A DNA stretch of 64,000 bases, from positions 51,391-115,390 of the IMG/VR virus record IMGVR_UViG_3300025789_000024; one strand, given 5' to 3'. The notes under the pieces were generated by a model. The model was not told the origin of the DNA, did not search any database, and was given only the letters and a program-made list of their open reading frames with translations. The stretch is from a virus. Positions 19,106 to 58,424 of the stretch are shown piece by piece. The stretch's first letter is position 1. Every line of letters begins with the position of its first letter. A program made the position numbers and the translations under genes.

Positions 19106-19113
19106 GATAAATA
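19106..19113 (+). promoter_or_regulatory. T4-like late promoter candidate
   Basis: GATAAATA lies 3 nt after the stop of the giant gene and 5 nt before the ATG of the 51-residue gene. It is a close match to the T4 late consensus TATAAATA. At such a short distance the transcript would be almost leaderless for the first gene, but would carry a leader for the 206-residue gene downstream. Confidence 0.5.
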
Positions 19114-25313: not shown

Positions 25314-26716
25314 TGTCAAACGAAACAGATAGAATTAAAACAATCAAAATTCGAGTAGAGAACGAATCTACTCCTACATTCTGTTTGGCTAAGTGGCATC
25401 ATGTTACTATGTACTTACAAAGTGGTGAGACACATAGTTGTTATCACCCACAACCACATAAGATTCCTTTAGAAGAACTGCGTGATAATCCCAGCGCATT
25501 GCATAATACGCAAGAGAAAAAGATGGAACGCAAGTTGATGCTTGAAGGTGGTAAGCCTACAGGTTGTCAATATTGCTGGAACATTGAAGCAATGGGACCT
25601 GACTATATCAGCGACCGTCATATTCGCAACAGTAGTATCTTTACAGAAGAACGTTTTGAGCAAACAGCAAAAGGTCCTTGGGACCAAAACATCAATCCAG
25701 AATACTTAGAAATTAACTTTGGTAACGAATGTAATTTCAAGTGCGGTTACTGTCATCCAAAGTATAGCACAAGTTTTTATAAAGAGATTGAAAAGTTTGG
25801 TCCCGTTACTAATGTAAAGAATCATCGTTGCGACATTGACTGGATGAAACTATATCAACGTGAAGAAGAAAATCCCTACGTTGATGCGTTTTGGAAATGG
25901 TGGCCTGAACTACGCAAGACATTAAACATCATGCGTGTAACAGGTGGCGAACCCACACTTCACAAATCTACATGGCAACTGTTAGATAAGATTGAAGAAG
26001 AACCCATGCCTTGGCTTGAACTAAACATTAACAGCAATCTTGGAACAAAGCCAGTTCTCATAGAACGTTTAGCAGACAAGGTCAAAAAGTTAGTAGACGA
26101 AAATAAAATTCAAAGTTTTAAATTGTTTACTAGCATGGATACATGGGGAGAACGTGCTGAGTATATTCGTACTGGGTTAGACTTAAAGTTGTGGGAACAA
26201 AACTTTCACACTTATGTACAACGCAGTAACAGCCCAATTACATTCATGATTACATTCAATATCTTTAGTGTGACTTCATTTAAGTCATTGCTTGAGAAGT
26301 TTTTAGAATGGCGTGAACAATATGGTTGGTTTGAAGAAAAGTCACACGACAAACATAGAATTCGTTTTGATACTCCATACCTTCGTGACCCTATTCAATA
26401 TGACATGAACATTCTTCCCAAAGAAGAGTTTATGCCCTATATGTATGAATCACTACAGTTTATGAAGGACAATGTAGACGATACTGCTAGTAACAAGTTT
26501 ACAACAATAGAATATGAAAAGTTCAAACGTGTAGTTGACTACATGGCTGAAACTAATTATGAAGAAAAGAAGTTGATTGAAGGTCGTAGAGACTTTTACA
26601 ACTGGTTCAATGAGTTAGATGATCGCAGAGAAAATGACTTATTAACCGTGTACCCAGAAATGTTGGAGTTTTATAGATTATGCCAGGAAACCAGCCTAAC
26701 GAATCCTCTTTCGTAA
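25313..26716 (+). CDS. Radical SAM enzyme with N-terminal cysteine cluster (first of the series)
   Basis: 467 residues. The radical SAM 4Fe-4S site is C140-NFK-C144-GY-C147. The TGGEPTLH segment near residue 220 matches the GGE SAM-binding motif. Before the core, C24, C43, C85 and C88 form a twitch/SPASM-like cluster that could bind an auxiliary iron-sulphur centre. In most SPASM enzymes this part is C-terminal, so here it is at the opposite end. Start codon overlaps the previous stop (TAATG). This family is known to act on peptides, proteins or small molecules, and the substrate here cannot be read. It is the most divergent of the four N-twitch paralogues and begins a run of them. Confidence 0.8.
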   Translation: MSNETDRIKTIKIRVENESTPTFCLAKWHHVTMYLQSGETHSCYHPQPHKIPLEELRDNPSALHNTQEKKMERKLMLEGGKPTGCQYCWNIEAMGPDYISDRHIRNSSIFTEERFEQTAKGPWDQNINPEYLEINFGNECNFKCGYCHPKYSTSFYKEIEKFGPVTNVKNHRCDIDWMKLYQREEENPYVDAFWKWWPELRKTLNIMRVTGGEPTLHKSTWQLLDKIEEEPMPWLELNINSNLGTKPVLIERLADKVKKLVDENKIQSFKLFTSMDTWGERAEYIRTGLDLKLWEQNFHTYVQRSNSPITFMITFNIFSVTSFKSLLEKFLEWREQYGWFEEKSHDKHRIRFDTPYLRDPIQYDMNILPKEEFMPYMYESLQFMKDNVDDTASNKFTTIEYEKFKRVVDYMAETNYEEKKLIEGRRDFYNWFNELDDRRENDLLTVYPEMLEFYRLCQETSLTNPLS

Positions 26717-27981
26717 AAAAGTTATTGCTTGGTAAGAGCAAGACTTTTTGTATGATACCTTGGGTTCACCTACATACCACCCCTGAGGGAGTGGCAGCAC
26801 CTTGTTGTATTGCAGAATCTTGTGCAACAAAAGAAGGTGTGGGTGATTCTAAAACACAAGGACTAATGGAACTAGTCAACAGCGAAAAGATGAACCAACT
26901 ACGACTAGATATGTTGACTGGTAAAGAAAACATTGAATGCAGCAAGTGTTATAACCATGATGCACAGGGTATTGATAGTTTTAGAACCACATCTAATAAA
27001 CAATGGAAAAATTCATTTGACGATGTATTAGAAAACACAAATCTTGAAGACGGATCATTAAAAGAATTCAAAATGCGATATTTTGATATTCGCTTTAGCA
27101 ATATCTGTAATTTCAAATGTCGCACATGCGGATCAGCGTTTAGTACTCAGTGGGAACAAGAAGATTTAAAGAACGGAGTATTCTATGCAAAGATTATTCC
27201 AAAAAATAATAATAAAAAGTTTTTGCAAGACGTATTAGATCAAATTCCAAATATGGAAATTGCATACTTTGCAGGTGGCGAACCATTAATCACTGAAGAA
27301 CATTATATCCTACTTGAAGAAATGATTCGTAGCAGTCACACAGATATCTTATTAAGATACAATACTAACCTAAGTAACTTAAAGTTTAAAGATAAAGATT
27401 TACTTGGTTTATGGAAACACTTTAGTCAAAAAATTCAAGTATATGCAAGTATTGATCATTGCAAAGAACGTGCAGAATATATTAGACATGGAACTGATTG
27501 GGGACAAGTTGAAACAAACTTTATGCTTGCCAAACAAACTCCCTATGTTAACATTCAAATTAACACAGTACTAAGTGTGTTCAACTATTTGACTATTGAT
27601 GAGTTTTACCAATATTTAATTGATAAGGGTATGTATACTAATAAGGATGCAGTGTTTACATTATATAACATGACGACCCCTGATCATTTGACATGTCATA
27701 TTCTACCACCTGAGTACAAAGTAAAAGGTGAAGAAAGTATCAACAGAGCAATACAGTATATGAGAAACAATGATTTTCTTGATCTACATACACAACAACT
27801 TGAAGTTGCTCCGGGTTGGGTAAATCACAAAGATAATTGGGACGAACAAAAAGTTAAATTTAAAGAAGAAGTAAAACGTCTTGATGCTATAAGAGGAGAA
27901 TCATTCATGGAAACATTCCCTGAAATTGCAAATCTTTATAAACCAGAGCAAAGAGTAAGAGCAAGAATGGCACCAGTATGA
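26680..27981 (+). CDS. Radical SAM enzyme with N-terminal twitch/SPASM-like cluster
   Basis: 433 residues. N-terminal C24, C42, C43, C87 and C90 surround the motif CMIPWVHLH, typical of twitch-type radical SAM proteins. The core is C143-NFK-C147-RT-C150, followed by AGGEPLITEEHY. The start at 26680 overlaps the upstream gene by 37 nt; a GGAG lies 10-14 nt ahead, but a later start cannot be excluded. A 48-nt stretch around the radical SAM motif (27063-27110) is identical to one in the next gene, although the flanks differ. Length and domain order match the next gene, so the two are close paralogues. Substrate unknown. Confidence 0.8.
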   Translation: MPGNQPNESSFVKKLLLGKSKTFCMIPWVHLHTTPEGVAAPCCIAESCATKEGVGDSKTQGLMELVNSEKMNQLRLDMLTGKENIECSKCYNHDAQGIDSFRTTSNKQWKNSFDDVLENTNLEDGSLKEFKMRYFDIRFSNICNFKCRTCGSAFSTQWEQEDLKNGVFYAKIIPKNNNKKFLQDVLDQIPNMEIAYFAGGEPLITEEHYILLEEMIRSSHTDILLRYNTNLSNLKFKDKDLLGLWKHFSQKIQVYASIDHCKERAEYIRHGTDWGQVETNFMLAKQTPYVNIQINTVLSVFNYLTIDEFYQYLIDKGMYTNKDAVFTLYNMTTPDHLTCHILPPEYKVKGEESINRAIQYMRNNDFLDLHTQQLEVAPGWVNHKDNWDEQKVKFKEEVKRLDAIRGESFMETFPEIANLYKPEQRVRARMAPV

Positions 27982-29213
27982 ACATAGACAAAGAATTTTT
28001 ATTAAACGAAAGCAAAACATTTTGCATGTTCCCTTGGGTCCATCTTAATGTAACACCCAAGGGTGATATCTATCCTTGCTGTAGTAACGACTACACTAAG
28101 CCCTATGGTAACACTAAGAAGTCTTCACTTAAAGAAGCATTCAACAGTGAACCAATGAAAAAGTTGCGATTAGATATGCTAAATGAAAAACAGAACGAAC
28201 TATGTACGTTTTGTTACAAGCATGAAGAAGCCGGTCCGCACAGTTTTAGAAACTACAGCAAAGAACAATTTGGTAAACGCTTTGACGAAATTGTTCCAAC
28301 TACACAGGAAGATGGAACAGTAGAAGAATTCAAAATGCGATATTTTGATATTCGCTTTAGCAATATCTGTAACTTCAAGTGTAGAACTTGCGGTAGTGAA
28401 TTCAGCAGCCAATGGGGTGCAGAAATGCAAAAGCACTTTGATGACAAACATCCAATTGTTATTCATGCTGACGATGGTAAGGGTAATGTGTTGGCAGAAG
28501 TACTTGAACATATTGAACATATTGATTTGGCATACTTTGCAGGTGGTGAACCACTGATCACAGACGAGCATTATGTGATGTTGGAAGAAATGATTCGTTT
28601 GGGTAAAACTGATATCACATTACGATACAACACAAATGCAAGTAATATCAAGTATAAGAAACATGATATCCTAGACTTATGGAAACATTTTAAAAAGATT
28701 GAATTAAGTTGTAGCGTAGATCATTATGGTGAACGAGCAGAATGGTTACGCAAGGGAACTGATTGGGGCAAAGTTGAAACCAATCTATTAACATTCCGTG
28801 ACTTAGATTACATTAGTTTCCAAATGAACACTGTGTTTAGTATTTTTAACTATAGCACCATTGGTGAGTTCTATCAGTATTTAAAAGACAAAAACATTGT
28901 TAGACGAGATGATTGGTATCATAGTTTATATTTGGCTGTGCATCCAGATTACTATTGTGCTAAGAGTTTACCCAAAGAATTAAAAGTTGATGCAGCTAGT
29001 AAAGCACTTGCATGGGCAGATGCTAATAAAGATGACAACACCTCATTATCAAGATTAGTTACAGACGCAGTTAATTTTGCTAGTGATAAAGATCAATGGA
29101 GCGAAGTTAAAGGTAAGTTTTTGCAACATACCCGAAGTATTGATAGAATCAGAGAAGAAAACTTCTGGGAAGTATTCCCCGAATTAAATAAATTACAGGA
29201 CTTAGAGGAATAA
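27978..29213 (+). CDS. Radical SAM enzyme with N-terminal twitch/SPASM-like cluster
   Basis: 411 residues. The auxiliary cysteines are C16, C34, C35, C76 and C79, around FCMFPWVHLNVTP. The radical SAM core is C131-NFK-C135-RT-C138, followed by AGGEPLITDEHY. The ATG overlaps the stop of the preceding paralogue (ATGA). It shares the 48-nt identical block with that gene (28325-28372 here). The C-terminal half is charged and helical without further cysteine motifs. A small 86-residue gene follows directly, which is worth noting because many radical SAM maturases work on, or with, a small partner encoded beside them. Reaction and substrate unknown. Confidence 0.8.
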   Translation: MNIDKEFLLNESKTFCMFPWVHLNVTPKGDIYPCCSNDYTKPYGNTKKSSLKEAFNSEPMKKLRLDMLNEKQNELCTFCYKHEEAGPHSFRNYSKEQFGKRFDEIVPTTQEDGTVEEFKMRYFDIRFSNICNFKCRTCGSEFSSQWGAEMQKHFDDKHPIVIHADDGKGNVLAEVLEHIEHIDLAYFAGGEPLITDEHYVMLEEMIRLGKTDITLRYNTNASNIKYKKHDILDLWKHFKKIELSCSVDHYGERAEWLRKGTDWGKVETNLLTFRDLDYISFQMNTVFSIFNYSTIGEFYQYLKDKNIVRRDDWYHSLYLAVHPDYYCAKSLPKELKVDAASKALAWADANKDDNTSLSRLVTDAVNFASDKDQWSEVKGKFLQHTRSIDRIREENFWEVFPELNKLQDLEE

Positions 29214-29215
29214 AC

Positions 29216-29476
29216 ATGGCAACATTTGAAGCTGGAAACCGAGACGTAAAACTTGAAGGTATGGTAAAAGACATTATGGCAAAGTATGTCGATAAGACAC
29301 CTTTTACTGAAGAAATTTGTGATCAAATCATGACAGATGTACTAGAGACATTTGGTAAAGAAGCCGATGCAAAGGTTATGATTGACACAGATACCAATGA
29401 AATTGAAATCACAGTTCGTGATTTGATTAAGCAACCAATGACATTCTCATCACTTAAATTATTCAAGGCAAAATAA
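29216..29476 (+). CDS. Small acidic protein between radical SAM genes, 86 residues
   Basis: I recognise no domain. The protein is acidic, with two likely helices (residues 11-48) and a short strand pair (KVMIDTDTNEIEITVRD, residues 55-71). There is no cysteine in the C-terminal half and no leader-like double-glycine site, so it does not look like a classic modified peptide precursor. It begins 2 nt after one radical SAM gene and its TAA overlaps the ATG of the next, so expression is tightly coupled to both. It may be a carrier, recognition or accessory protein for them. This is inference from position; a plain structural role is also possible. Confidence 0.5.
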   Translation: MATFEAGNRDVKLEGMVKDIMAKYVDKTPFTEEICDQIMTDVLETFGKEADAKVMIDTDTNEIEITVRDLIKQPMTFSSLKLFKAK

Positions 29477-30747
29477 TGGACAACGCAGTAGTCAAAAATC
29501 TAGTAGAAAACGGTAAACACTTTTGTGTACTACCTTGGGTACATTTTCATGCATGGCCTGATAGTCGTGTAATGCCTTGCTGTATTGCAGATAGCAACAT
29601 GCCCGTGGCAAAAATTGAAAGTGACGTATCCATCATTGAAATGATGAATAGTGAAGACTACAAGAAAATGCGTACAGCAATGATGAATGATGAGCCTGTT
29701 GAGGCTTGCAAACGTTGCTATGACTTGGAACTAATGGGCACATGGACTATGCGTCAAAGTCATAATAAACGCAGAGGTCTAGATTATGTTGACTATATTG
29801 TTGATGTTACAAATGATGATGGTTCATTAAAAGAATTTGAAATGAAGTACATGGATATTCGTTTTAGTAATTTATGTAATATGAAATGTCGTAGTTGCGG
29901 GCCTGCATGTTCAAGTCAATGGGCACAAGAGTTCATGGATCAACGCGGGGAAGAAATGTTTAAAAAGTATTTCCCTAACCAAAAAATTGTTGTTAACAAC
30001 AATGAAGACCAAACACTTATGCTTAAACTAAAGCCATATCTTGCTGATGTGACTGAAGTATACTTTGCTGGTGGCGAAATTATTATTACTCCTGAACACT
30101 ATGAGTGCTTAGACTATTGGATTGAAAATGGATTAACCGATCAAGTTGAATTAAACTACACAACAAACTTCTCATCATTGAAGTATAAAAAGAATGTAGA
30201 CTTGATTGATTATTGGAGTAAGTTCCCTAACTTGCAAGTATGGGCATCACTTGATGCACATGGTGAATTAGGTGAGTGTATTCGTAAGGGTACTGATTGG
30301 GAAAAGATTGAAGCAAACATTCGTGAGATTAAAGAAAAAGTTCCGCATGTTAAGTTTCAGATTACTCCCACAATCAGTATTTGGAATGTGTTTGACTTCC
30401 CAGACTTCTTTGACTATATGATTGAAAAAGGCTTTATTGATACAATGTCAAGCCCACGCTTTAACTTAGCGACTAATCCATGGTACGCAAACATTATGAT
30501 TCTACCTAAGCACGTTAAACGTAGGCTAACAGAATTGTATAGAGTATATCAAGAAAAGTACAAAGATAACATTGATATCTATAATGGATTTAAAATGATT
30601 ATCTATAACTTAAATGTCGGTGATGAAAACAAAGGTGGTATCTTAGAGTTTAAGCAGTTCAATGATGAACTTGACACATTCCGTGACGAAAAACTTGAAG
30701 ATATCGTACCAGAATTAAAAGAGGTCTATGAGTGGGCCGCAAGTTAA
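29476..30747 (+). CDS. Radical SAM enzyme with N-terminal twitch/SPASM-like cluster
   Basis: 423 residues. N-terminal C17, C35, C36, C78 and C81 with the motif FCVLPWVHFH; the core is C134-NMK-C138-RS-C141. The downstream GGE motif is AGGEIIITPEHY, with isoleucine in place of the usual proline. It is the third of three closely similar paralogues but lacks the 48-nt identical block. The start overlaps the stop of the 86-residue gene (TAATG) and the 3' end overlaps the next gene by 16 nt. The shared architecture suggests a related but not identical substrate. Cytoplasmic; no signal or membrane segment. Confidence 0.8.
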   Translation: MDNAVVKNLVENGKHFCVLPWVHFHAWPDSRVMPCCIADSNMPVAKIESDVSIIEMMNSEDYKKMRTAMMNDEPVEACKRCYDLELMGTWTMRQSHNKRRGLDYVDYIVDVTNDDGSLKEFEMKYMDIRFSNLCNMKCRSCGPACSSQWAQEFMDQRGEEMFKKYFPNQKIVVNNNEDQTLMLKLKPYLADVTEVYFAGGEIIITPEHYECLDYWIENGLTDQVELNYTTNFSSLKYKKNVDLIDYWSKFPNLQVWASLDAHGELGECIRKGTDWEKIEANIREIKEKVPHVKFQITPTISIWNVFDFPDFFDYMIEKGFIDTMSSPRFNLATNPWYANIMILPKHVKRRLTELYRVYQEKYKDNIDIYNGFKMIIYNLNVGDENKGGILEFKQFNDELDTFRDEKLEDIVPELKEVYEWAAS

Positions 30748-31703
30748 TCGCAATTGAAGCACCTCAACCATATGTTGCAGTAACATGGCAAGTTAACAAT
30801 TTCTGTAACTTTCGCTGTAGTTACTGTAACCCCGGCAACTGGGCGGGCGCAAATCCCAACAATGGCAATTTAGATATTTACCTAGCTAACTTAAAAGTTA
30901 TCGCACAGCGTTATAAACAATCAGGTTACAAGAACTTCAAGTTCTTTTTCAGTGGCGGCGAACCAACGGCATGGCGCAATTTTATTCCTATCTGTGAATG
31001 GATTCGTGAAGAACTACCTAATTCAACTATTGCAGTTAACACTAACTTAAGTCGTCCATTGGCATGGTGGGAAAAACATCATCATTTATTTGATGACATC
31101 GTTGCTAGTTTCCATGTAGAGTTTAGTGACAAGAAACGTTACGAAGAAAACAGCATTTATCTATGTGATAAAGTCAATTATCTTTCTAGTAAGATGTTGA
31201 TGCATGAGGAAAGATTCTGGGAAGTTGTTGAGTTTGCTGAATATCTTAAAACAGTAATGCCAAACTATTTCATTGAATGGACTCCTTTATATGATGAACT
31301 AAGTCATGTTACGGGTCCTTGGAATTATAAAGATCCTGCAAAAACAGAATTCTTTAAAACTCATAACATTGAAATGCAACAAACTAAAGATAAGCCTGCT
31401 AAAAGCACAGAGTTTGCAGTAAGTTACAATCGGTATGATGACAACACTACACAAGTATGTAATGCCAATGATGTGATTGTTAATGGGCAAAACTTCTTTA
31501 GTGGTTGGAACTGCAATGTGGGTGATTGTATCTTTATCAATCCTGTGGGTGATGTTAGTCTAGCAAGTTGCGGACAAACTGAAAAAATAGGACATATATT
31601 AGAAGATATCAGTAAAGTGGGTCCAAAACAAATTACATGTTATAAAGAAATGTGTATGTGCGGTACAGATATTATCATACCGAAAATTCTAGTCGATAAA
31701 TAA
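30732..31703 (+). CDS. Radical SAM enzyme with C-terminal cysteine cluster
   Basis: 323 residues. The core motif lies close to the start: C25-NFR-C29-SY-C32, then FFFSGGEPTAW around residue 78. Unlike the previous four genes, the extra cysteines are at the C-terminus (near WNCNVGDC, LASCG, TCYKEMCMCG), which is the usual place of a SPASM/twitch domain. It therefore resembles canonical SPASM-type maturases in order but is shorter. The start overlaps the upstream gene by 16 nt. Function is not assignable beyond a SAM-radical reaction on an unknown substrate. Confidence 0.8.
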   Translation: MGRKLIAIEAPQPYVAVTWQVNNFCNFRCSYCNPGNWAGANPNNGNLDIYLANLKVIAQRYKQSGYKNFKFFFSGGEPTAWRNFIPICEWIREELPNSTIAVNTNLSRPLAWWEKHHHLFDDIVASFHVEFSDKKRYEENSIYLCDKVNYLSSKMLMHEERFWEVVEFAEYLKTVMPNYFIEWTPLYDELSHVTGPWNYKDPAKTEFFKTHNIEMQQTKDKPAKSTEFAVSYNRYDDNTTQVCNANDVIVNGQNFFSGWNCNVGDCIFINPVGDVSLASCGQTEKIGHILEDISKVGPKQITCYKEMCMCGTDIIIPKILVDK

Positions 31704-47545: not shown

Positions 47546-50500
47546 ATGCTTAGAGATGTATTTTACTACGGAAATAAACCCAACGTTCACCCCAGAGAAA
47601 GATTTGCAGAATCATTAGAAGATGCTAGAGAAAAGTGTACAACCGAACACTTTTGGATCATCAATGAATTCTGTGACTACCGCGGCTTTGATTGGGATTT
47701 TGATTTTGAATTCTTGCCTGATGAAGATGTGTGGGCAGAATCTCACAATAACATTTGGCCCAGCCAACATCAGAAAGATAGCGGCACTTGGTTATGTTCT
47801 AAAGAATTTAGCGAAGTGTTAATCTATCGCGGTGATGTAGAACCTATTATTAGAAAAAATGAAAAGAACGATAATTGGGTACTATTAGATAGTATAGATG
47901 AGTTTAAGTTTGACTTTAGTTGGCATCCTGATCCAACCGATCCTGCTTATATCTATCGTTGGGGTTCAAAGTTTGCACCGGTACAACTAAAACCCGTGTT
48001 AGAGTATCATACTCACGGTGCAACAGAAGTCAGGTATATGAACACTACTGTTGAACTCAATGTTGATAAAGACAACTGGGTGTTTTATCAACAACCTGAT
48101 ACAGACAAGTTTGACTTTACTTGGAGACCTAGTCCATTAGACACCCCTTACATATATGTATGGGGAAATAAACACATCGATGGTATACTAAAACCAACTG
48201 CTGAATACCATGTACCCGGTGCAACTGATAAAAAGTACATGCCAGAAAAATTAGCAGTACTGCCTGAATGGGACAAGTGGGCGCTTTTAAAAGAAGTAGA
48301 TAAAACAAAATTTGATTTTACTTGGAGACCTGATCCACGTGAGCCGGCTTACATTTATACATGGGGTAATAAGTACGAACCTGCTGAAATAACACCTACA
48401 TTGCAGTATGTATGTGAAGGTGCTACAGAAATCAAATACATGGAGGATACAATAGATGTGTTACCACAATGGGATCGTTGGGTAGAAGTACAACAAGTAG
48501 ATAAAACAAAGTTTGATTTTACTTGGAGACCCGATCCACTCGAACCCCCTTACATTTATACTTGGGGTAATAAGTGGATCGAAGCTGAACTAAAGCCTAC
48601 ACTTGAATATCATTGCCCTGGCGCAACCGAACGCAAGTACATGACTAATGATGTGCCTGTAATGCCGGAAATGAATCGATGGAATATCATCGAGAACATT
48701 AGAAAAGATGGATTCGATTTTACTTGGAGACCTGATCCACGTGAACCTGATTTGATTTATGTATTTGGTAATGAATTATATGATGGTATAAAAATGCCTA
48801 CAGTTGAGTATCATTGTGATAACGCAACTGAACGCAAGTACATGGATAATTTAAAAGCAAAACTTGCTTCAAATGAAAAACTCTACGAACATTTAGAAGA
48901 TTCCGTATTAGATGATTATTCATGGTTGCCCGATCCTGATAGCCCACCTTACATTTATGTATGGGGCAATCAATGGAACAAACCCGAAGATAAAATTAGC
49001 GTACAATTAGTTGTACCCGGTGCGTCAGAATATAAATTCATGGATGCCCGTGCAATACGCAAGCCATGCATGGACAATTGGGTAATACCTAGTGATATAG
49101 ATACCACTGGCTTTGACTTTAGTTGGGAACCTAGTCCTGCTGACCCTGCATTTATCTATGAATTTGCAACACAATGGCAAAAGACAGGTGGACCTCGCTA
49201 TGTTGTAGAACATGCAACAGAAACAAAGTACATGGACTTCCAAAAGGCTAAAAAGTTAGTTGATATGACTAACTGGACTATTCCTAAGAACGTTGATGTT
49301 AGTGGCTTTGATTTTAGTTGGCATCCAGATGCAACAAGTCCTCCATACATTTATAACTTTGCAACTCAATGGGCATTAAGTGGTGGACCAACATATACTG
49401 TACCTGGTGCAACAGAACTAAAATATGTAGATGATCAAAAAGCAATAGCAACAGTTGATATGACCAACTGGGAGTTTGATAGTGTATTGATTGATGTTAA
49501 TTCATTTGACTTTAGTTGGCATCCATATGCAGAAGACGAACCCTACATATATCAGTTTGGTACTCAATGGCAAAAAACAGGCGGACCGAGATACATTACT
49601 CCTGGGGTACACAAGAACAGTCCTATAAGTTATGTAGACACACGTGTGTTAAAAGCAAAGCGTTTACCTAATCAAAAGAACTGGGACATACTTGATGATC
49701 TAGTTGTTATTGATTTTGATTATAGTTGGCATCCTGACGAAACTGAACAACCATTTGAATATCACTTTGGTAATAATTTGTATCCAGCAGAGATTATGCC
49801 TACTATGGTCTATCGTGTACCTAGCGCAAAACAAGTAAAGTATGTAAGCGATATTATTGCTACACTGGGTCCAGATAGAAGTAATTGGAATATACCTTCT
49901 GACATTGATGATACTGGGTTTGATTATAGTTGGAAGCCTAATCCAAAAGATCCGCCATATATCTATGAGTTTGCTACCCAATGGCAAAAGACAGGTGGAC
50001 CAAAGTATATTGTAGAAGATGCAACAGAAACAAAATACATTGACACACACAAAGTCAAACACTTATCCAATAAAGAAAATTGGACTGTTCCTACTAACAT
50101 CGATGTTTCAGGGTTTGACTTTAGTTGGCATCCAGATGCAACAAGTCCTCCTTATATCTATAACTTTGCAACTCAGTGGGCGTTGAGTGGTGGACCTGTA
50201 TATACTGTAGCAGGTGCAACAGAAGTCAAGTATATGGAAGATCAAACAGCTAAAGCATTACCTGATATGACCAACTGGGTTATACCTGATGATGTTGATA
50301 AAAACGCATTTGATTATTCATGGCATCCTTATGTAGAAGATCAACCTTACATTTATGTATTTGGTACACAATGGCAAAAGACCGGTGGACCTAAATATAT
50401 GACGCCGGGCGTGCATAAAAACAGTCCCGTAAAATATATTGACACACGTATTTTAAAATCAACTAAATTGCCTTCAAAAAAGAATTGGGATATACCTGAT

Positions 50501-53500
50501 GATATTGATGAAAGTAGTTTTGATTTTAGCTGGCATCCAGACGATACTGAAGAACCATTTATCTATGAATTTGCAACGCAGTGGCAAAAGACCGGCGGAC
50601 CTAAATACATTGTAAAAAATGCAAAATCATTTAAGTACATTGATAGTTTAAAATCTAAAAAATTACCTAATCTAACTAATTGGGATGTTCCTGCTAATAT
50701 TGATATGGATAGCTTTGACTTTAGTTGGCATCCTGATAGCACAGAAGAACCATACAACTATTATTTCCCAACTGAATGGCAAAGTGAAGGTGGTCCTGTG
50801 TATAGAACTCCTTCAGCAAAAAATGATGCATACCCTAATATATTAGTTGCAAAAACATTGCCTACAACAGACAACTGGATAATACCTGAAGGTCTAGACA
50901 CTAGTGAGTTTAAGTTCAATTGGCATCCGCACCCCAAAGATCCTGCATTCATTTATGAATTTGGTACACAATGGCAAAAGACAGGTGGACCAAAGTATGT
51001 GGTCACAGGTGCAGAAGAAACAAAATATATTGATGTTAGCGTAGCAAAAAGATTGCCTAATGCAAATAATTTTGTAACACTCAATAATTATGTGATTGAA
51101 GAATTTGACTATAGTTGGCATCCAGACAGCACAGAAGAGCCATTCATTTATCAGTTTGGTAACAAGTACTACCCTGCTGAACAAATGCCTACAATTGAAT
51201 ATCGTGTTGAAGGTGCTACTCAAGTTAGTTATGTGCATGATGTTGTTGCAACACTAGCAAGTGATAAATCTAATTGGAAAATTCCAAAAGACATTGATAC
51301 AAAGAGTTTTGACTTTGGTTGGAAGCCAAGCCCATTAGAGCCTCCCTATATCTATGAATTCGCCACTCAGTGGCAAAAAACAGGTGGACCTATCTATAGA
51401 GTAGCAGGTGCTACTGAAAAAAAATATGTTGACATCATTAAAGCAACACACTTGTCCTCAAGAAAAGGTTGGGAAGTTCCTGATGTTGACTTAACTGATT
51501 TTGATTTTAGTTGGCATCCTGATGCAACAAGTCCACCTTATATCTATCAGTTTGGTACTCAATGGGCATTGACTGGTGGTCCAAGATATATTGTCAAGGG
51601 TGGCACAGAAGTAAAATACGTTGAAGGCATTATTGCTAAAGCGTTACCTAGTAGAACCAATTGGGAAATTCCTGATGATATTGCTATTAATGAGTTTGAC
51701 TTTAGTTGGCACCCATACGCAGAAGATGATCCATTCATTTATCAGTTTGGTACACAACACCAACGTACAGGTGGCCCTCGCTATGTAGTACCCGGTGCTA
51801 GTAAAATCAAATACATTGACACACGTATTATCAAAGCACGTAAGTTAGTTAACATGACTAACTGGATCGTATCAAAAGATATTGATGTATCTAAATTTGA
51901 TTTTAGTTGGCATCCAGATGACACAGCACCTCCTTATGTCTATCAGTTTGGTACTATTGAAAATGACACAGACGGCCCAAGATATGTTGTGCCTGGCGAT
52001 ACACTTGATACTGTTTACTTAGAACGTGTTGAACTAGAAGAGTCACAATTTGTTGACTATCCTAAATATGCGATTGAAACTACACTAGATGATTTAGTTA
52101 GTAAACATCCAAATGAAATCTTTTGGGCTATTAATTCAGAACTAGATTATAGTGAATTTAACTTTGATTGGAGACCCTCAATCGAGCAAGTCAAGTATGT
52201 TCATGCGTTTGGTTCTAGTGAAAGCACAACAACACAAACATATTTTGTTAATGCAAATATGTGGAATCAAGGCTTTAGAGATTTGAACTGGGTAGAAGAT
52301 AAAAAACTCGATGACAAAACATTGGCTAAACTATTTAAGAAGCCAGATATGTTCTATGTGGACAAGGGTAACAAAGAATCAGTTATACGTTTTGAATTAC
52401 TTAAAGCCAAATTCCCACACATTCAAAAGACACGTTATCTAAACAGTTGGGTAGATACAATCAACCGCTGTACTAATCGTGCAACAAGTCCTTTGCTATG
52501 GATATTGAATAGTGAGTTGGATTACAGTAACTTTGACTTTGAATACTATCCTAATCCTTGGCAGATGAAAATGGTTCATGTATTTGGTACTCAATGGAGT
52601 CATTGGGGAACCACATTCATGGTCAATCGTGAAACGTTTAGCAATGATACCAAATACATTAAGATCATTGAACACTTGAGTAACTTAAACTTTGTTAAGA
52701 CTAACAGAGCAGTAGCCACACAATGTTTATATGACATTGTATTGATTGATCATGGCAATATCAATAATGTTATTGAATTGTTACAACAAAAGGCAGGTGA
52801 CAAATCTGTTAGTGTTGTTAAGTATGATACAAGTTACTTGAACACAATTAGAACTGTATTGAGTAAACAGCCAGACAAACGTGAAAACTATATTTGGTTG
52901 TGCAGTAGTATTTGCGATTACACAAACTTTGACTTTAGTTATGTTTGCGATCCATTTGCACGTGAACAGTTGCATGTGTTCCCTAGTGGTAAACAAAAGT
53001 TTGGTGACACATTCTTCTTAGATGTTAACAAAGCAAAAGAATTAATAAAAGAGATTGATTCACTGGAAGAATACAACAAGGTTAACTACAATGCGTCATT
53101 GCGTGTACCTAGAATGCCTGAGCCAATCATTGTAACAAGTGATGATACACTTGTTGATGCGGCAAAACGTATTGAAGGATACCCATATGCTGTATTGATG
53201 ACAGAAGATAACAAGAATATTGATGTCATTGATACTGAACCAATGAACTTGTGGAGCCCTGAAACTAAGACAATCATGGTTACAAGCACAGGTGCATCAC
53301 GTATCATTGTGCCACGTGACGTAAAAGACCACGTAAAAACCGAATTATACGATTATCCGTATATTAAGAAATCAACTAAACTTGCTATGAGCAAGCCACT
53401 GGATATAGTCTTCCTAAGCAATGGTGAAACCGGCGCTGACGAGAACTACGAACATTTACTGAAGGTGACTAAGGGTATTAAAAACCGTGTAGTAAGAGTT

Positions 53501-54061
53501 GATGGTGTTAATGGTCGTGCTGCCGCATATCATGCCGCAGTTGAAGCCAGTGAAACACCTTGGGCATTCACAGTCTTTGCTAAATTAAAAGTATCAGCAA
53601 AGTTTGATTGGAACTGGCAACCAGATAGAATGCAAATTCCAAAGCATTATATTTTCCAAGCAAAGAATCCTGTGAATGGTCTAGTTTATGGTCACCAGGC
53701 CATGATCGCATACAACAAGAAACTTACACTTGCTAATACGGGTAAGGGTCTTGACTTTACATTAGATGACGAACATGAAGTTGTGCAATTATTGTCCGGT
53801 ACTGCAATGTACAACACAGATGCATTTAGTACATGGCGTACTGCGTTCCGTGAAGTACTCAAACTACGTGCAGAAGATAGTGATATCGCCCGTGAACGAT
53901 TACATGCATGGTTAAACAAAGCAGAAGGCAATTATTCTCAATACAGCATCAAGGGCGCAGTAGACGCTGACGAATTCTATGATGAAGTCAGTGGAGACTT
54001 TAACCAAATCAAACTAAGTTATGAGTGGGCTTGGTTGCGTGATAGATTTGCCCAGTCATAA
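47546..54061 (+). CDS. 2,171-residue tandem-repeat protein with C-terminal glycosyltransferase-like domain
   Basis: About 24 units of 60-70 residues, each centred on FDFSWHPD...PPYIY-x-FGTQW, run from about residue 118 to 1800. An N-terminal unit and the last three units carry the fuller form W(I/A)-x-N-S-E-L-D-Y-x-x-F-D-F. The C-terminal domain (about residues 1950-2130) contains RVDGVNGRAAAYHAA and NPVNGLVYGHQ, homologous to the transferase at 24357, but where that enzyme has DGDN this one has FAKL, so the metal site is lost. It is probably a scaffold or binding protein derived from a transferase fold, not an active one. No signal peptide or membrane segment. Confidence 0.7.
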   Translation: MLRDVFYYGNKPNVHPRERFAESLEDAREKCTTEHFWIINEFCDYRGFDWDFDFEFLPDEDVWAESHNNIWPSQHQKDSGTWLCSKEFSEVLIYRGDVEPIIRKNEKNDNWVLLDSIDEFKFDFSWHPDPTDPAYIYRWGSKFAPVQLKPVLEYHTHGATEVRYMNTTVELNVDKDNWVFYQQPDTDKFDFTWRPSPLDTPYIYVWGNKHIDGILKPTAEYHVPGATDKKYMPEKLAVLPEWDKWALLKEVDKTKFDFTWRPDPREPAYIYTWGNKYEPAEITPTLQYVCEGATEIKYMEDTIDVLPQWDRWVEVQQVDKTKFDFTWRPDPLEPPYIYTWGNKWIEAELKPTLEYHCPGATERKYMTNDVPVMPEMNRWNIIENIRKDGFDFTWRPDPREPDLIYVFGNELYDGIKMPTVEYHCDNATERKYMDNLKAKLASNEKLYEHLEDSVLDDYSWLPDPDSPPYIYVWGNQWNKPEDKISVQLVVPGASEYKFMDARAIRKPCMDNWVIPSDIDTTGFDFSWEPSPADPAFIYEFATQWQKTGGPRYVVEHATETKYMDFQKAKKLVDMTNWTIPKNVDVSGFDFSWHPDATSPPYIYNFATQWALSGGPTYTVPGATELKYVDDQKAIATVDMTNWEFDSVLIDVNSFDFSWHPYAEDEPYIYQFGTQWQKTGGPRYITPGVHKNSPISYVDTRVLKAKRLPNQKNWDILDDLVVIDFDYSWHPDETEQPFEYHFGNNLYPAEIMPTMVYRVPSAKQVKYVSDIIATLGPDRSNWNIPSDIDDTGFDYSWKPNPKDPPYIYEFATQWQKTGGPKYIVEDATETKYIDTHKVKHLSNKENWTVPTNIDVSGFDFSWHPDATSPPYIYNFATQWALSGGPVYTVAGATEVKYMEDQTAKALPDMTNWVIPDDVDKNAFDYSWHPYVEDQPYIYVFGTQWQKTGGPKYMTPGVHKNSPVKYIDTRILKSTKLPSKKNWDIPDDIDESSFDFSWHPDDTEEPFIYEFATQWQKTGGPKYIVKNAKSFKYIDSLKSKKLPNLTNWDVPANIDMDSFDFSWHPDSTEEPYNYYFPTEWQSEGGPVYRTPSAKNDAYPNILVAKTLPTTDNWIIPEGLDTSEFKFNWHPHPKDPAFIYEFGTQWQKTGGPKYVVTGAEETKYIDVSVAKRLPNANNFVTLNNYVIEEFDYSWHPDSTEEPFIYQFGNKYYPAEQMPTIEYRVEGATQVSYVHDVVATLASDKSNWKIPKDIDTKSFDFGWKPSPLEPPYIYEFATQWQKTGGPIYRVAGATEKKYVDIIKATHLSSRKGWEVPDVDLTDFDFSWHPDATSPPYIYQFGTQWALTGGPRYIVKGGTEVKYVEGIIAKALPSRTNWEIPDDIAINEFDFSWHPYAEDDPFIYQFGTQHQRTGGPRYVVPGASKIKYIDTRIIKARKLVNMTNWIVSKDIDVSKFDFSWHPDDTAPPYVYQFGTIENDTDGPRYVVPGDTLDTVYLERVELEESQFVDYPKYAIETTLDDLVSKHPNEIFWAINSELDYSEFNFDWRPSIEQVKYVHAFGSSESTTTQTYFVNANMWNQGFRDLNWVEDKKLDDKTLAKLFKKPDMFYVDKGNKESVIRFELLKAKFPHIQKTRYLNSWVDTINRCTNRATSPLLWILNSELDYSNFDFEYYPNPWQMKMVHVFGTQWSHWGTTFMVNRETFSNDTKYIKIIEHLSNLNFVKTNRAVATQCLYDIVLIDHGNINNVIELLQQKAGDKSVSVVKYDTSYLNTIRTVLSKQPDKRENYIWLCSSICDYTNFDFSYVCDPFAREQLHVFPSGKQKFGDTFFLDVNKAKELIKEIDSLEEYNKVNYNASLRVPRMPEPIIVTSDDTLVDAAKRIEGYPYAVLMTEDNKNIDVIDTEPMNLWSPETKTIMVTSTGASRIIVPRDVKDHVKTELYDYPYIKKSTKLAMSKPLDIVFLSNGETGADENYEHLLKVTKGIKNRVVRVDGVNGRAAAYHAAVEASETPWAFTVFAKLKVSAKFDWNWQPDRMQIPKHYIFQAKNPVNGLVYGHQAMIAYNKKLTLANTGKGLDFTLDDEHEVVQLLSGTAMYNTDAFSTWRTAFREVLKLRAEDSDIARERLHAWLNKAEGNYSQYSIKGAVDADEFYDEVSGDFNQIKLSYEWAWLRDRFAQS
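47890..52020 (+). repeat. W/Y-rich tandem repeat array, about 21 regular units
   Basis: Regular units with the core F-D-(F/Y)-(S/T)-W-(H/R/K)-P-(D/S/N) then (P/A)-(Y/F)-I-Y-x-(F/W)-(G/A)-(T/N)-(Q/K), a G-G-P-x-Y strand, and an A-T-E-x-K-Y-(M/I/V)-(D/E) end. Unit length is about 190-210 nt. A subset (the DATSPPYIYNFATQWALSGG type) is nearly identical at DNA level, pointing to recent unit duplication or exchange. Divergent units continue to about 53000. Confidence 0.8.
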
Positions 54062-54450: not shown

Positions 54451-55505
54451 TGAAAATATTAGGTTTGGAAGTGTGGAGTCAATCTCCAGAAAATGTCTCC
54501 ACTTTTTTCAACAGATTAGAAACTGAAGAATTTGATTACATTGTTTTGTTTGGACAAAATGAATGGCAATACTATCAAGCCTTTGCCCATGTATTAGACA
54601 GAGCAATACAAGAAGTTTGTATTAAACGCAATCAAACACTTTATATATTTAACGGATCGGCTATCGTCAATGAAGTTGACGAACCTACGTTGCACCCTTT
54701 AGTAAAAGTTATTGCATGGCCTGAATGGTATTTCATTAAAACCTATGCACAAATGTGTTCTCATAGCAAACATTATAAAATTAATTATAATTTAAATGTA
54801 GATGTTGACACATACAAATATCATTACATTACCATGAACAATCGTGCGCATCCGCATAGATGTTATATGATGGATATATTGGCAAAATATAATTTGATTG
54901 AACGTGGTGCCATTTCTTGGGCAGAAGAATACTATACAGAAGATCCTTATCCTTGGCAATACTGGATACCCAAGTTATTAAAATTAGGATCATATCTCGA
55001 AAGTGAAAAAATTTGGCTCAATATACCAGATGAATTCTACGATTCATTTGTTTCATTAATAAATGAGTCTACAATTGATTCTGTGATCTTTAGTGAAAAA
55101 ACTGTATTTGCATTGGTATGCGGGCAACCTTTTATTTGTGTTTCGGGACCAGGACATCATAAGTTACTAGAAAATATGGGATTTGAGTTGTATACAGAAT
55201 TGTTTGACTATTCATTTGATAGTGAGAAAGATAATAATAAACGAACAGAATTGGTAGTACAAAACATAGAACGTATTTGTAAATTATCACTAGACGAACT
55301 AGCAGTACTTAAACAACAAATCAAGCCTAAAATTATAAGAAACAAGCAAAGGGTAAGAGATATCGCAATGTCGCCCAATTCATATTGTGACATAATTGCA
55401 AGCGTGAGACAATTAGATCAGATTGAAAGCGCCACTGCATGTAGTTGGATTTGGCACATGTATTTTTTGCTTGACGACTGTCATAAAAATAATACGCTTT
55501 TATAA
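54450..55505 (+). CDS. GT-B-like protein of the EK...PF family (copy 4)
   Basis: 351 residues. The conserved C-terminal block is FSEKTVFALVCGQPFICVSGPG, then MGFELYTELFDYSFD, closest to copy 2 at 34019. A first strand (YIVLFGQNEWQYYQ) occurs near residue 30. The ATG directly follows the TAA of the signal-peptide gene (TAATG), so it is translated with it although it has a different type of product. It ends the sugar-related part of the window. Glycosyltransferase role inferred from the shared block only. Confidence 0.5.
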   Translation: MKILGLEVWSQSPENVSTFFNRLETEEFDYIVLFGQNEWQYYQAFAHVLDRAIQEVCIKRNQTLYIFNGSAIVNEVDEPTLHPLVKVIAWPEWYFIKTYAQMCSHSKHYKINYNLNVDVDTYKYHYITMNNRAHPHRCYMMDILAKYNLIERGAISWAEEYYTEDPYPWQYWIPKLLKLGSYLESEKIWLNIPDEFYDSFVSLINESTIDSVIFSEKTVFALVCGQPFICVSGPGHHKLLENMGFELYTELFDYSFDSEKDNNKRTELVVQNIERICKLSLDELAVLKQQIKPKIIRNKQRVRDIAMSPNSYCDIIASVRQLDQIESATACSWIWHMYFLLDDCHKNNTLL

Positions 55506-55511
55506 TAAATA
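55504..55511 (+). promoter_or_regulatory. T4-like late promoter candidate
   Basis: AATAAATA, directly at the end of the GT-B-like gene, 27 nt before the ATG of the 51-residue gene. It is followed by AAAGGGTG, a fair ribosome-binding site. Confidence 0.4.
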
Positions 55512-55538
55512 ATATTACTGTTTTAGAAAGGGTGTTTT

Positions 55539-55694
55539 ATGAAACAACATAAATTAATCACCAAATTATATAAGGCATGTTTCGATCATGACCAAGAAAA
55601 GCAACAAGAGTTGCGAGTAAAAGAATTTGCGAAAATTTTTAAACGCAAATCTGAGGGCAAAAAGTTTACTGCCAAGTGGACGGTAGTTCACTAA
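55539..55694 (+). CDS. Small basic protein, 51 residues
   Basis: ATG 55539 to TAA 55694, with AGAAAGGG 7-14 nt upstream. The sequence is basic and helical ([13 protein letters not shown] near residues 25-37), with a C-terminal [10 protein letters not shown] strand. It resembles small proteins that I remember from T4-like marine phages; no search was run. It lies immediately before the tmRNA acceptor piece, whose promoter may overlap its stop. Function unknown. Confidence 0.6.
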
Positions 55695-55703: not shown

Positions 55704-55767
55704 ACAGCGTAAACTGTTATTAAGAAAAGTATTCTGGACGGGGGTGCGAATCCCCCCAGGTCCACCA
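55704..55767 (+). ncRNA. ssrA: Two-piece tmRNA, acceptor piece (permuted ssrA, 3' part)
   Basis: The 5' end is set only roughly. In order: ACTGTTATT (55713-55721), which pairs with the 3' end of the coding piece (56282-56290); TATTCTG (55730-55736), which pairs with CAGGGTA at 56129-56135 as a P2-like helix with two G-U pairs; GAC; then a T-arm GGGGG-TGCGAAT-CCCCC (55740-55756), with a seven-base loop; then the acceptor strand CAGGTCC (55757-55763) and ACCA (55764-55767). CAGGTCC pairs with GGGCCTG at 56110-56116, giving a seven-pair acceptor stem with G3-U70, the alanine identity element. CCA is encoded. This piece lies before the coding piece, so the gene is circularly permuted. Confidence 0.9.
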
Positions 55768-55778
55768 TAAGGAGATTT

Positions 55779-55786
55779 GATAAATA
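55779..55786 (+). promoter_or_regulatory. T4-like late promoter candidate
   Basis: GATAAATA inside the segment between the two tmRNA pieces, followed by CTAG and the ATG of the 101-residue gene at 55791. The same motif and spacing occur before the gene at 56334, so it may be a shared leaderless-start arrangement. Confidence 0.45.
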
Positions 55787-55790
55787 CTAG

Positions 55791-56096
55791 ATGCGAATAA
55801 AAGAACTCACTGAATCATTTAACAAGTGCTATAACATGGCCTGTAAGGTATATGATTTAGCAAGTTCTAAAAATTTGCAACCTAAACTAATACAAGTAGC
55901 AGATTACAAAGGCGATGGTTCTGGCGCTGATAAACGCTGGCAAAAACTACCGCAAAGAGTATGGCAACATTATGTCACAGTAATCGGCAATAAAGTTTAT
56001 GACCCAACTGCTAAACAGTTTGGACCTGACAAAGATACTGAGTATAGTTTAGAAAAATTAGATACTGAATGGGGAAAACAGTATCATATCAAATAA
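55791..56096 (+). CDS. 101-residue protein encoded between the two tmRNA pieces; papain-like candidate
   Basis: Preceded by TAAGGAG at 55768-55774, directly after the CCA of the acceptor piece. Starts MRIKEL, like the MDIKEL start of the large gene after the tmRNA. C13 or C18 lie in an N-terminal helix, H60 in WQHYVTVIG, and D71 in VYDPTAKQF. A helix Cys followed by an H-[YV] strand and a YDPTA segment resembles papain-fold and transglutaminase-like thiol enzymes. This is a pattern match only, and neither the fold nor activity is shown. The gene ends 13 nt before the coding piece of the tmRNA. Confidence 0.55.
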   Translation: MRIKELTESFNKCYNMACKVYDLASSKNLQPKLIQVADYKGDGSGADKRWQKLPQRVWQHYVTVIGNKVYDPTAKQFGPDKDTEYSLEKLDTEWGKQYHIK

Positions 56097-56109
56097 GTCT
56101 TTTTGTGAT

Positions 56110-56290
56110 GGGCCTGATATAGATTCGACAGGGTAACAAGTAAGAGTAACGGCGCTCGGCAAAGCAGAAGCCGTAGGATTGGGGTTTCCCGATTATAGAC
56201 GCAAAACCTATAACTGCAAACGACAGTTTATACGCCATTGCCGCTTGAGCATAGCCGAGGTAGTTATACCTTGTAACCAAAAATAACAGT
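56110..56290 (+). ncRNA. ssrA: Two-piece tmRNA, coding piece (permuted ssrA, 5' part)
   Basis: Starts with the acceptor strand GGGCCTG, then ATATAGATTCGAC, matching the conserved GAUUCGAC of the tmRNA D-loop region. The resume codon GCA at 56216 begins the frame A-N-D-S-L-Y-A-I-A-A with stop TGA at 56246-56248. After it come a small hairpin (GAGGTA...TACCTT, near 56259) and AATAACAGT (56282-56290), which pairs over nine bases with the 5' part of the acceptor piece. A terminator hairpin follows at once. The tag ends in IAA rather than the common LAA or VAA. The two ends sit in an ordinary tmRNA hairpin that is broken in its loop. Confidence 0.92.
56216..56248 (+). other. tmRNA proteolysis-tag reading frame ANDSLYAIAA
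   Basis: Ten codons starting GCA AAC GAC and ending GCC GCT TGA. The AND start and A-A end are typical of proteolysis tags. Read on a stalled ribosome it would mark the nascent protein for ClpXP-type proteases. The penultimate residues IA differ from the usual LA or VA. Confidence 0.88.
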
Positions 56291-56317
56291 AAGGGACATT
56301 CGTGTCCCTTCCTTTTT
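56291..56317 (+). terminator. Rho-independent terminator after the tmRNA
   Basis: AAGGGACA-TTCG-TGTCCCTT (56291-56310): an eight-pair perfect stem with a TTCG tetraloop, then CC and a run of five T (56313-56317). It directly follows the tmRNA coding piece. Confidence 0.9.
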
Positions 56318-56321
56318 GTTC

Positions 56322-56329
56322 GATAAATA
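56322..56329 (+). promoter_or_regulatory. T4-like late promoter candidate
   Basis: GATAAATA between the terminator and the ATG at 56334, with only four bases (CACT) in between. There is no ribosome-binding site, so a leaderless start is likely if this promoter is used. Confidence 0.45.
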
Positions 56330-56333
56330 CACT

Positions 56334-58424
56334 ATGGACATCAAAGAACTTCACTCATTCAAATTATCTGATGCGGTTAAATTTCACGACAAACTTAATC
56401 CTAAATTATGGTTTGGTGAAAGACTAGACCCTGCTGTTAGAAAACAATTATTAGTCATTGCCAAGGACTTTATGAGCGAACTTGGCATACATGATTTAGC
56501 AGTTGATGATATCACGGTATCAGGTAGCAATGCCGCATATACATATACTCCTCATAGTGACTTAGACCTACATATCCTAGTAGACATGAGCAAACTAATG
56601 AATAATGATGTATACCAAGAATTGTTTAATGCAAAGAAAACACTATACAATGACAGCCATGATATCAAAATCAAGGGTGTACCCGTAGAATTATATGTAC
56701 AAGATAGCAATGAACCTGTTGTTAGCTTGGGTGAATACAGCGTATTAAACAATCAGTGGATCAAGCGTCCAACTAAACGCAGAGCCAATCTAGATCAAAA
56801 TGCCACACGTGCAAAGTTTGACAAACTAGCAGAAATGGTAAGTCTGGCATTAAAGACACAAGATTTAGAAAAACTTAACAAAGTTATTAAAAATATTAAA
56901 CGTTATCGTCAAGCAGGACTAGACAAAGGTGGTGAGTTTAGCCCCGAAAATCTAGCATATAAAGCATTGCGCAGTCAAGGTCAGATAGACAAACTGTACA
57001 ACTTACGTGACAAATTACATAGTGAGTTATTGAGCATTGATGAAATGTATCGTAATCCTGTTACTATACAAAAAGAAGAACAAGAAAAAACATTTAAGGC
57101 TAGTCAAGTTTGGAACTATGTTAAAAAGATACACCCTGCTGATCAACAAGGTGATGGCTTTTTAAAAAGTTTAGTTATCAATCATCCTAAATGGGAACTT
57201 AAACACGTTCCATTAAATCAAATTCGTATACCTGATCCATATGCAGAAGATGATTTTGAAGATGCATACAATCGTGTGTTGGATATTGACATGTACCATG
57301 TTAATGACATTACATCACATGATATTAACAAAAGGCCTATCGTTATTGATACTGATGGATTTGTCATTGATGGTAATCATAGAGCATTGTCAGCAAGATT
57401 GCGTGGTATGAAAACGATTCCTGCATATGTTCCTGTAGGTAAATTAGAAGAAAAAGTTAACTATGATTTACTAAATGATCCTGAACCAGTTGATCAAACA
57501 GTTGATTGGAACGGTTATAAATTTAGAATTCAAAACACATTGAATGGTGTAGAGGATACCCCCGGTGTAGTTATCAAAGCATATGATCCTAAGAATCTAA
57601 ATCACAGTATAGGTAAAGCAGATTTTGTATTACACAAAGATAAAAAAGGTGCATGGATCGAAAGTAACGACACAGAAGTAGATGATGAATATCAAGGTAA
57701 GGGTATTGCTACTATGATGTATGCAGTTGCTAAAAGCATGGGTTTTGATGTTAGACCTAGTCCTTATCAAAGCAATGCTGGTAGACAAATGTGGAAGAAG
57801 TGGGGTAGTGATGCTAAGAACTTGATGAAAGAAACATTTGATAAACCCTATCCACTAAAATGGGAAAAGAGTGAGTATGGTGATGTTGATGCATTGGCGA
57901 CATTACCAGATGGTGCACCATTGAGTATCATGTTTGAACATACTACTCCATATGAAGTTCATGTGTCTTTCTATAGAAACAATAGTTTAGAAGTCACCGG
58001 GGAAGGTGATTCACAAAGAGTATTTGCAACAGTGCTACATGCTATTCAAGAATTTCTTAAAATGGAACAACCAGCAAATATATCATTTTCAGCAAGTAAA
58101 GAAGTTGAGCCTGGACAAAACAGTGAAAGCCGCGCTAAACTTTACAATAGATTAGTTCAGCGATATGCAAATGCATGGGGATATAAATTCCATAGCTTTG
58201 ATCACGGTGATGAAGTTGTATATGAATTGTCTAGGATCAAGCAAGATGTTAGCGAAGCCTCAGGGTACATCCCAACCTATGCTCAACGAAATGACCCAAG
58301 ATTCGAAAAAGCATTGACAGTAGACGTACATCCTGATACAATGAAAAAGGGTGCTAAAAAGTTCGGCTGGAACATCAGTCGTGCAGGCATTCCACCAACA
58401 GCAAAACCAAACGGTAAAATTTAA
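56334..58424 (+). CDS. Multidomain nucleotidyltransferase / ParB-like / GNAT protein
   Basis: The ATG at 56334 is preferred. A TTG at 56316 in the same frame would start inside the terminator T-run. Residues 60-85 hold a nucleotidyltransferase motif (GSNAAYTYTPHSDLDLH, with G64-S65 and D76-x-D78). About residues 285-370 resemble a ParB/sulfiredoxin-type domain (PIVIDTDGFVIDGNHRALSARLRG). About residues 440-500 resemble a GNAT acetyltransferase (DDEYQGKGIATMMYAVA). The C-terminus (SGYIPTYAQRNDPRFEKALTVDVHP) is of a kind common at the ends of T4-like phage proteins. Such domain stacks fit the injected or multi-effector polyvalent proteins of phages. Targets are unknown. Confidence 0.65.
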   Translation: MDIKELHSFKLSDAVKFHDKLNPKLWFGERLDPAVRKQLLVIAKDFMSELGIHDLAVDDITVSGSNAAYTYTPHSDLDLHILVDMSKLMNNDVYQELFNAKKTLYNDSHDIKIKGVPVELYVQDSNEPVVSLGEYSVLNNQWIKRPTKRRANLDQNATRAKFDKLAEMVSLALKTQDLEKLNKVIKNIKRYRQAGLDKGGEFSPENLAYKALRSQGQIDKLYNLRDKLHSELLSIDEMYRNPVTIQKEEQEKTFKASQVWNYVKKIHPADQQGDGFLKSLVINHPKWELKHVPLNQIRIPDPYAEDDFEDAYNRVLDIDMYHVNDITSHDINKRPIVIDTDGFVIDGNHRALSARLRGMKTIPAYVPVGKLEEKVNYDLLNDPEPVDQTVDWNGYKFRIQNTLNGVEDTPGVVIKAYDPKNLNHSIGKADFVLHKDKKGAWIESNDTEVDDEYQGKGIATMMYAVAKSMGFDVRPSPYQSNAGRQMWKKWGSDAKNLMKETFDKPYPLKWEKSEYGDVDALATLPDGAPLSIMFEHTTPYEVHVSFYRNNSLEVTGEGDSQRVFATVLHAIQEFLKMEQPANISFSASKEVEPGQNSESRAKLYNRLVQRYANAWGYKFHSFDHGDEVVYELSRIKQDVSEASGYIPTYAQRNDPRFEKALTVDVHPDTMKKGAKKFGWNISRAGIPPTAKPNGKI

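Follow-up and report, generated by a model that had tools for sequence, protein, structure and literature searches.

The window, i.e. the whole stretch of 64,000 nucleotides analysed here (positions 51,391 to 115,390 of the IMG/VR record IMGVR_UViG_3300025789_000024), contains a circularly permuted, two-piece tmRNA gene with a protein gene between its pieces. The locus is best explained, with a probability of about 0.7, as a permuted ssrA belonging to a large phage of the T4 superfamily; its intervening segment (IVS) would have turned into a protein-coding cargo slot, and its single precursor would be processed. Judged from sequence, this slot is shared by dozens of related large phages and holds many different proteins. 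The original prediction had pointed out the long, gene-bearing spacer as the odd part of the locus, which is right but understated, since the spacer is a recurrent cargo slot of large phages. Two-piece tmRNAs are already known from phages; the protein-coding segment between the pieces is new, and no report of protein genes within a tmRNA IVS was found in the open-licence literature. The phages are placed in the T4 superfamily on the gp21-type prohead protease (PF03420) alone among the hallmark genes, which is present in the 115 kb window record (G000; E 1.1e-28) and in 13 of 18 other records. Contigs reach up to 525 kb, and G000 may be a fragment.

All features described below lie on the + strand. 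The region 55705-56248 is a circularly permuted tmRNA according to the Rfam covariance model RF04321 (tmRNA_permuted), the kind of search that had been named as a check: the match covers both pieces and the entire model (positions 1-213) with 101 bits (E 1e-19; gathering score 47). ARAGORN calls a permuted tmRNA independently of Rfam. The acceptor piece (55705-55767, true 5' end unknown) is supported by RF04321, ARAGORN and the conserved helix P2, and consists of the P2 3' strand (55730-55736), the T-arm (55740-55756), the acceptor strand (55757-55763) and ACCA (55764-55767). The coding piece (56110-56290), supported by RF04321 and RF01850 matches, ARAGORN and P2, starts with the acceptor 5' strand (56110-56116), followed by GATTCGAC (56122-56129) and the P2 5' strand (56129-56135). 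Its tag reading frame (56216-56248 including the TGA stop) is recognised by ARAGORN, Rfam and homology; the tag is by homology ANDSLYAIAA (56216-56245), and the prefix AKPIT reported by ARAGORN stems from an in-frame GCA upstream. An intrinsic terminator (56291-56310) comes next, with a T-rich tail behind it. All elements listed in the original prediction, namely GATTCGAC, T-arm, CCA, tag frame and terminator, are located in the window.

Three pairings between the pieces had been proposed, two of which hold. The acceptor stem GGGCCTG/CAGGTCC with its G3-U70 pair is formed by 56110-56116 and 55757-55763. P2, CAGGGTA/TATTCTG, is formed by 56129-56135 and 55730-55736, possesses all seven pairs in 50 of 60 unique loci, and shows compensatory changes among relatives (TTGGGTC/GATTCAA in L003, CAGGGCT/AGTCTTG in L059). 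The third, AATAACAGT/ACTGTTATT, is a perfect 9 bp match in the window, yet not a conserved helix: the counterpart regions of 65 loci score 5.71 with their real partners and on average 5.62 with shuffled ones, and one of the strands can form an alternative local hairpin, AACAG/CTGTT. Processing of the window tmRNA to two mature RNAs, its charging with alanine and its use with SmpB are inferred; no SmpB was detected in 19 phage records, which implies that of the host. Many phage permuted tmRNAs possess long tags of 23-34 aa, e.g. ANADTFDFSAMSFTGNTVRGAANESRFALAA and AKTSTGEVTVSGKNVKFSARTVKATSFAV, which recur across contigs (L061, L060, L036, L006, L062, L096, L109, L160 and others), some without the usual ALAA ending. 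L003 (3941-3979) and L108 possess a T-loop GGCAGTT resembling the alphaproteobacterial GGCGGTA/GGCAGTA, with ordinary tags (ANDEQFALAA or ANDSQFALAA).

The gap of about 340 nt with a 101-residue gene is confirmed: the IVS measures 342 nt (55768-56109) and contains ORF101 (55791-56096; protein sequence starting MRIKELTESFNKCYN), whose stop codon lies 13 nt upstream of the predicted cut site before the coding piece. Homologues occur in two more viral contigs, L003 (331 kb, 88% amino acid identity) and L004 (72 kb, 76%), again between acceptor and coding piece. ORF101 is, as far as substitution patterns can tell, a genuine protein gene under purifying selection, because it has these two homologues, pN/pS across the three aligned sequences is 0.24, and third positions carry an excess of the nucleotide differences (21 of 30, 39 of 67 and 45 of 74 in the pairwise sets). 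Together with ARAGORN, RF04321 and the conservation of P2, this pN/pS value upholds the central claim of a two-piece permuted tmRNA enclosing a protein gene. No named homologue was found in Pfam (above cut-off), PHROGs, NCBIfam, PADLOC, PDB sequences or isolate phages. C13, H60 and D71 are invariant in all three sequences. The structural model built from the three-sequence alignment is weak (pLDDT 72), and a fold search with it gave no match below E 0.001; the list of weak matches is rich in papain-like enzymes, and a cysteine enzyme is no more than a guess from this model.

Scans of IMG/VR combined with a search for acceptor/coding pairs yielded 113 unique records, whose IVS comprise 103 different sequences. 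In the majority, a single frame fills the IVS. Two classes of IVS can be told apart. The first is bacteria-like, short or structured and often with complementary ends. The second possesses TAAGGA(G), a Shine-Dalgarno (SD) sequence, straight after CCA and a start codon about 8-23 nt into the segment, from which the frame runs on to a stop close to the coding piece, a typical end being CTTTATGAT followed directly by GGGCCTG. Spanning ORFs are observed in 59 of 70 SD-bearing IVS; after shuffling of the interiors the mean is 6.8, and 15 is never exceeded. The slot is optional, since some relatives keep a structured IVS without ORF. Short IVS (34 unique) encode micro-proteins of 22-26 aa, mostly hydrophobic and labelled here as membrane micro-proteins; the largest group has a pN/pS of 0.20. 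Longer cargos include a thioredoxin (L150/L167; PF00085, E 4e-21), an IscU scaffold protein (L121; TIGR01999, 224.8 bits against a curated cut-off of 192.4) and a 151-aa protein with invariant C/H/D (L059/L060). The model of this second cargo family (pLDDT 88) found no significant fold match, and the identity of the remaining cargos is unknown. Cargo N-termini of the type MRI.E(L/I)..E look like the capsid targeting sequences of T4, and the phage also encodes gp21; but of the 356 ORFs sampled from G000 and G301, the two IVS cargos are the only ones with such a start, and a capsid-targeting peptide is not claimed.

The SD-like sequence of the IVS is at the same time one strand of a helix. AAGGAGA (55769-55775), immediately behind the acceptor piece, pairs in folds with TCTTTTT (56098-56104), in front of the coding piece, and the pairing is supported by covariation. 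Over nine pairs and 55 unique end pairs, 92% of the cells are paired, against 49-72% when the partner is slid; the observed count of 455 exceeds the maximum of 443 in 1000 partner shuffles. Pair 6 occurs as G-C in 26, A-T in 19 and T-A in 4 cases. Folds of the window stack this closing helix on the acceptor stem via CCA/TGAT with one mismatch, and a matching fold is found in nine loci. The helix is probably older than the SD, its 5' strand having turned into one; this is an inference from three isolate phages (SM1, QDWS595 and QDWS359) whose ORF-less IVS have complementary ends. The covariation of this helix, by which the IVS is closed onto the acceptor stem, speaks for a single precursor that is transcribed and folds at least some of the time.

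Permuted tmRNAs are matured from one precursor by RNase P and tRNA 3' processing, and it is on this established pathway and the layout of the locus that three RNAs from one transcript are proposed. One precursor would be transcribed from an upstream promoter, its acceptor stem GGGCCTG/CAGGTCC extending across CCA/TGAT into the closing helix, which would keep the SD AAGGAGA covered during folding. Host RNase P would cleave before GGG and the tRNA 3' nuclease after CCA, releasing acceptor piece, coding piece and a short cargo mRNA; the two tmRNA pieces would then re-pair and be used with host SmpB. Between otherwise similar tmRNA genes, the cargo genes are exchanged. The sequences themselves show the tmRNA with its paired pieces, the coding character of ORF101 and of further IVS ORFs, the closing helix, and how varied and scattered the cargo is. 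Cleavage, translation, promoter use and cargo function are inferred throughout, without transcript, cleavage or protein data. Of the ribosome-binding site attributed to ORF101, the sequence is present (AAGGAG, 55769-55774), but its distance of 16 nt from the ATG is poor spacing, so that translation of the cargo from the processed window RNA may be poor.

Cargo mRNAs cut in this way would raise the question of feedback. RNase P would leave a cargo mRNA ending at or just past its stop codon, and ribosomes finishing it could be caught by the tmRNA of the same transcript, which would decide between intact release and tagging of the product; acting on top of the single-precursor processing preferred here, such a self-regulating cassette would let cargo accumulate only under overload of trans-translation, much like ArfA in E. 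coli. That a cargo is tagged by the tmRNA of its own gene is a serious possibility because cut mRNAs would end 1 nt after, or before, the stop: in 40 of the 59 spanning ORFs exactly 1 nt separates the stop codon from the coding piece (TGA is the stop in 42), and the ORFs of five loci (L134, L192, L194, L200 and L075) run into the predicted RNase P site without meeting a stop, so that the processed mRNA would be nonstop. Messages that extend only a little way beyond the P-site codon are readily used by tmRNA, the kcat for peptidyl transfer to it not being lowered with 3 or 6 nt (PMC4151336), and ArfA, whose nonstop mRNA is repressed by tmRNA, provides a precedent (PMC10107115). The latter is an analogy only: RNA cleavage likewise yields a nonstop or near-nonstop mRNA, but arfA lies outside ssrA, is cut by RNase III and is not homologous to the window system. 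Against feedback, the stop of ORF101 lies 13 nt upstream of the cut, where weak tagging is expected, a stop codon in the A-site is normally terminated fast, and expression data are absent. The idea remains tentative, and the evidence at hand leaves it rather improbable.

The late-type promoter motif ascribed to ORF101, GATAAATA (55779-55786), is real and recurs before genes, but it lies merely 4 nt from the ATG. Of the nine late-type motifs in the window, seven have an ORF start no more than 40 nt downstream. The motif survey places NATAAATAN (55504-55512), overlapped by a sigma-70-like match (55478-55506), upstream of the operon; the next motif, GATAAATAC (56322-56330), precedes the following gene (56334-58424). 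In the window phage and G301, the ATAAATA-type motifs cluster at two distances from the ATG of a gene, 4-5 nt and 17-31 nt; they may be T4-type late promoters, which are defined by a TATAAATA-like element at a fixed distance from the transcript start, a kind of data that is lacking. It is on such motifs that a reading as two transcription units relies: the acceptor piece would be transcribed from the upstream promoter, ORF101 and the coding piece from the late promoter inside the IVS, and the halves would meet in trans. The ATAAATA core is common to all six IVS with MRI.. cargo, but absent from most other gene-bearing IVS, no terminator-like site was found between acceptor piece and ORF101, and the closing helix, kept by covariation across the set, needs both ends on one RNA. 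Two separate units are therefore unlikely as an account of the locus. Under the preferred single-precursor reading, two transcripts are nevertheless possible owing to the motif inside the IVS: with this motif at 4 nt and the SD at 16 nt from the ATG, the precursor is probably made from upstream and a second late transcript may start at ORF101 in the window variant, where ORF101 and the coding piece would probably also be transcribed without the acceptor piece. ATAAATA stands 4-5 nt ahead of an ATG at window positions 19106, 31695, 38609, 55779 and 56322, a distance that would, with T4-like spacing, result in nearly leaderless late transcripts.

Cargo contents are observed to be scattered almost randomly on a tree computed by a quick method from only the tmRNA pieces (110 rows, 163 columns), from which swapping of the cargo is deduced. 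The three IVS classes require 43 label changes on this tree, where shuffled labels need 51.7, and for each class the well-supported branches alone demand no fewer than 10-12. These counts are approximate, as the alignment is short, and the simple labelling rule takes L028 and L146 for ORF-bearing and L166 for empty. The closest tmRNA to that of the window (L032) carries a micro-protein instead of ORF101, and the other ORF101 carriers are placed elsewhere on the tree. The slot seems both to gain and to lose genes, as sequence comparisons suggest: homologues of the L059 cargo are ordinary genes without tmRNA (L257-L272); in L255 (2940-3460) and L256 the cargo gene stands behind a decayed acceptor piece with truncated T-arm and no coding piece follows; and the 51-aa ORF immediately upstream of the acceptor piece in the window (55539-55694) has a relative in the cargo of the L148/L154 IVS (39% identical in blastp over 41 aa, E 3e-7). 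L255 and L256 document that loss does occur, yet a decaying relic, i.e. a tmRNA interrupted by an unrelated gene and left with non-functional pieces, is very improbable for the window, where both helices are intact, as are the G-U pair, T-arm, CCA, tag and terminator, and P2 is maintained by compensatory change in relatives. The window, its relatives and all gene-bearing IVS derive from metagenomes or other uncultivated contigs, but an assembly or binning artefact is practically ruled out by the order acceptor piece, ORF101, coding piece in three contigs of differing context and by a layout common to dozens.

Bacterial two-piece tmRNAs (RF04321, RF01849-RF01851) share with the window the order acceptor - IVS - coding, an acceptor stem with G-U, T-arm, P2 and tag, but the IVS of the bacterial loci examined is short, hairpin-rich and devoid of an SD-led ORF, whereas that of the window comprises 342 nt with a selected gene. 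Bacterial permuted loci examined directly have short hairpin spacers and no SD-led ORF, and in 299 Pseudomonadota genomes no permuted tmRNA match scoring above 90 bits extends over more than 332 nt, against 544 nt in the window. The window departs from the short, gene-free IVS typical of bacteria; IVS length and content are not family-defining. Patterns of the phage-type IVS gave 0 and 4 matches in 85,462 bacterial and archaeal genomes, none of them in tmRNA genes (one tRNA-Arg, three without any RNA). Seven isolate phages (SM1, XacN1, S-CAM1, S-SSM7, BUCT628, QDWS595 and QDWS359) possess a permuted tmRNA like the window, but their IVS are short or structured, without a spanning ORF. The permuted tmRNA of Pseudomonas phage SM1 (L205, 1175-1595) lies where no feature is annotated. 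The accessible part of a survey of 402 phages gives 133 unique tmRNA structures, 53 of them called two-piece; Melnitz and other marine phages have, as in the window, a permuted ssrA in a T4-like phage, and that part describes a glutamine riboswitch and notes that the gene is present, without mention of a protein gene between the pieces (PMC9004378). As far as its description is accessible, the tmRNA database lists a long IVS in a gene of 1152 bp with a repetitive element and another IVS holding a tRNA-Ala gene, but, unlike the window, mentions no protein-coding IVS (PMC11915505).

If the preferred reading is true, the excised spacer of a structural RNA gene would serve as mRNA for interchangeable proteins, an unusual coupling of rescue-RNA maturation to expression and a possible reason for phages to keep a permuted tmRNA. 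Membrane micro-proteins, thioredoxin, IscU and possible cysteine enzymes would be test cases for delivery by phages beside the control of trans-translation. Annotation can overlook both the RNA and its cargo when the IVS is long.

Some further genes of the window were noted. The gene after the tmRNA (56334-58424) encodes a protein of 696 aa, in which weak matches alone point to a nucleotidyltransferase-like N-terminus, to a ParB-like stretch and possibly to an acetyltransferase stretch. A protein of 2171 aa (47546-54061) is built of numerous repeats, each about 60-70 aa long and of the type FDFSWHPDPxxPPYIYxFGTQWQKTGGPxY. Five successive radical-SAM-like genes with CxxxCxxC-type motifs (25313-31703), recognised by eye in the ORF list, are located among glycosyltransferase-like and nucleotide-sugar-enzyme-like genes.
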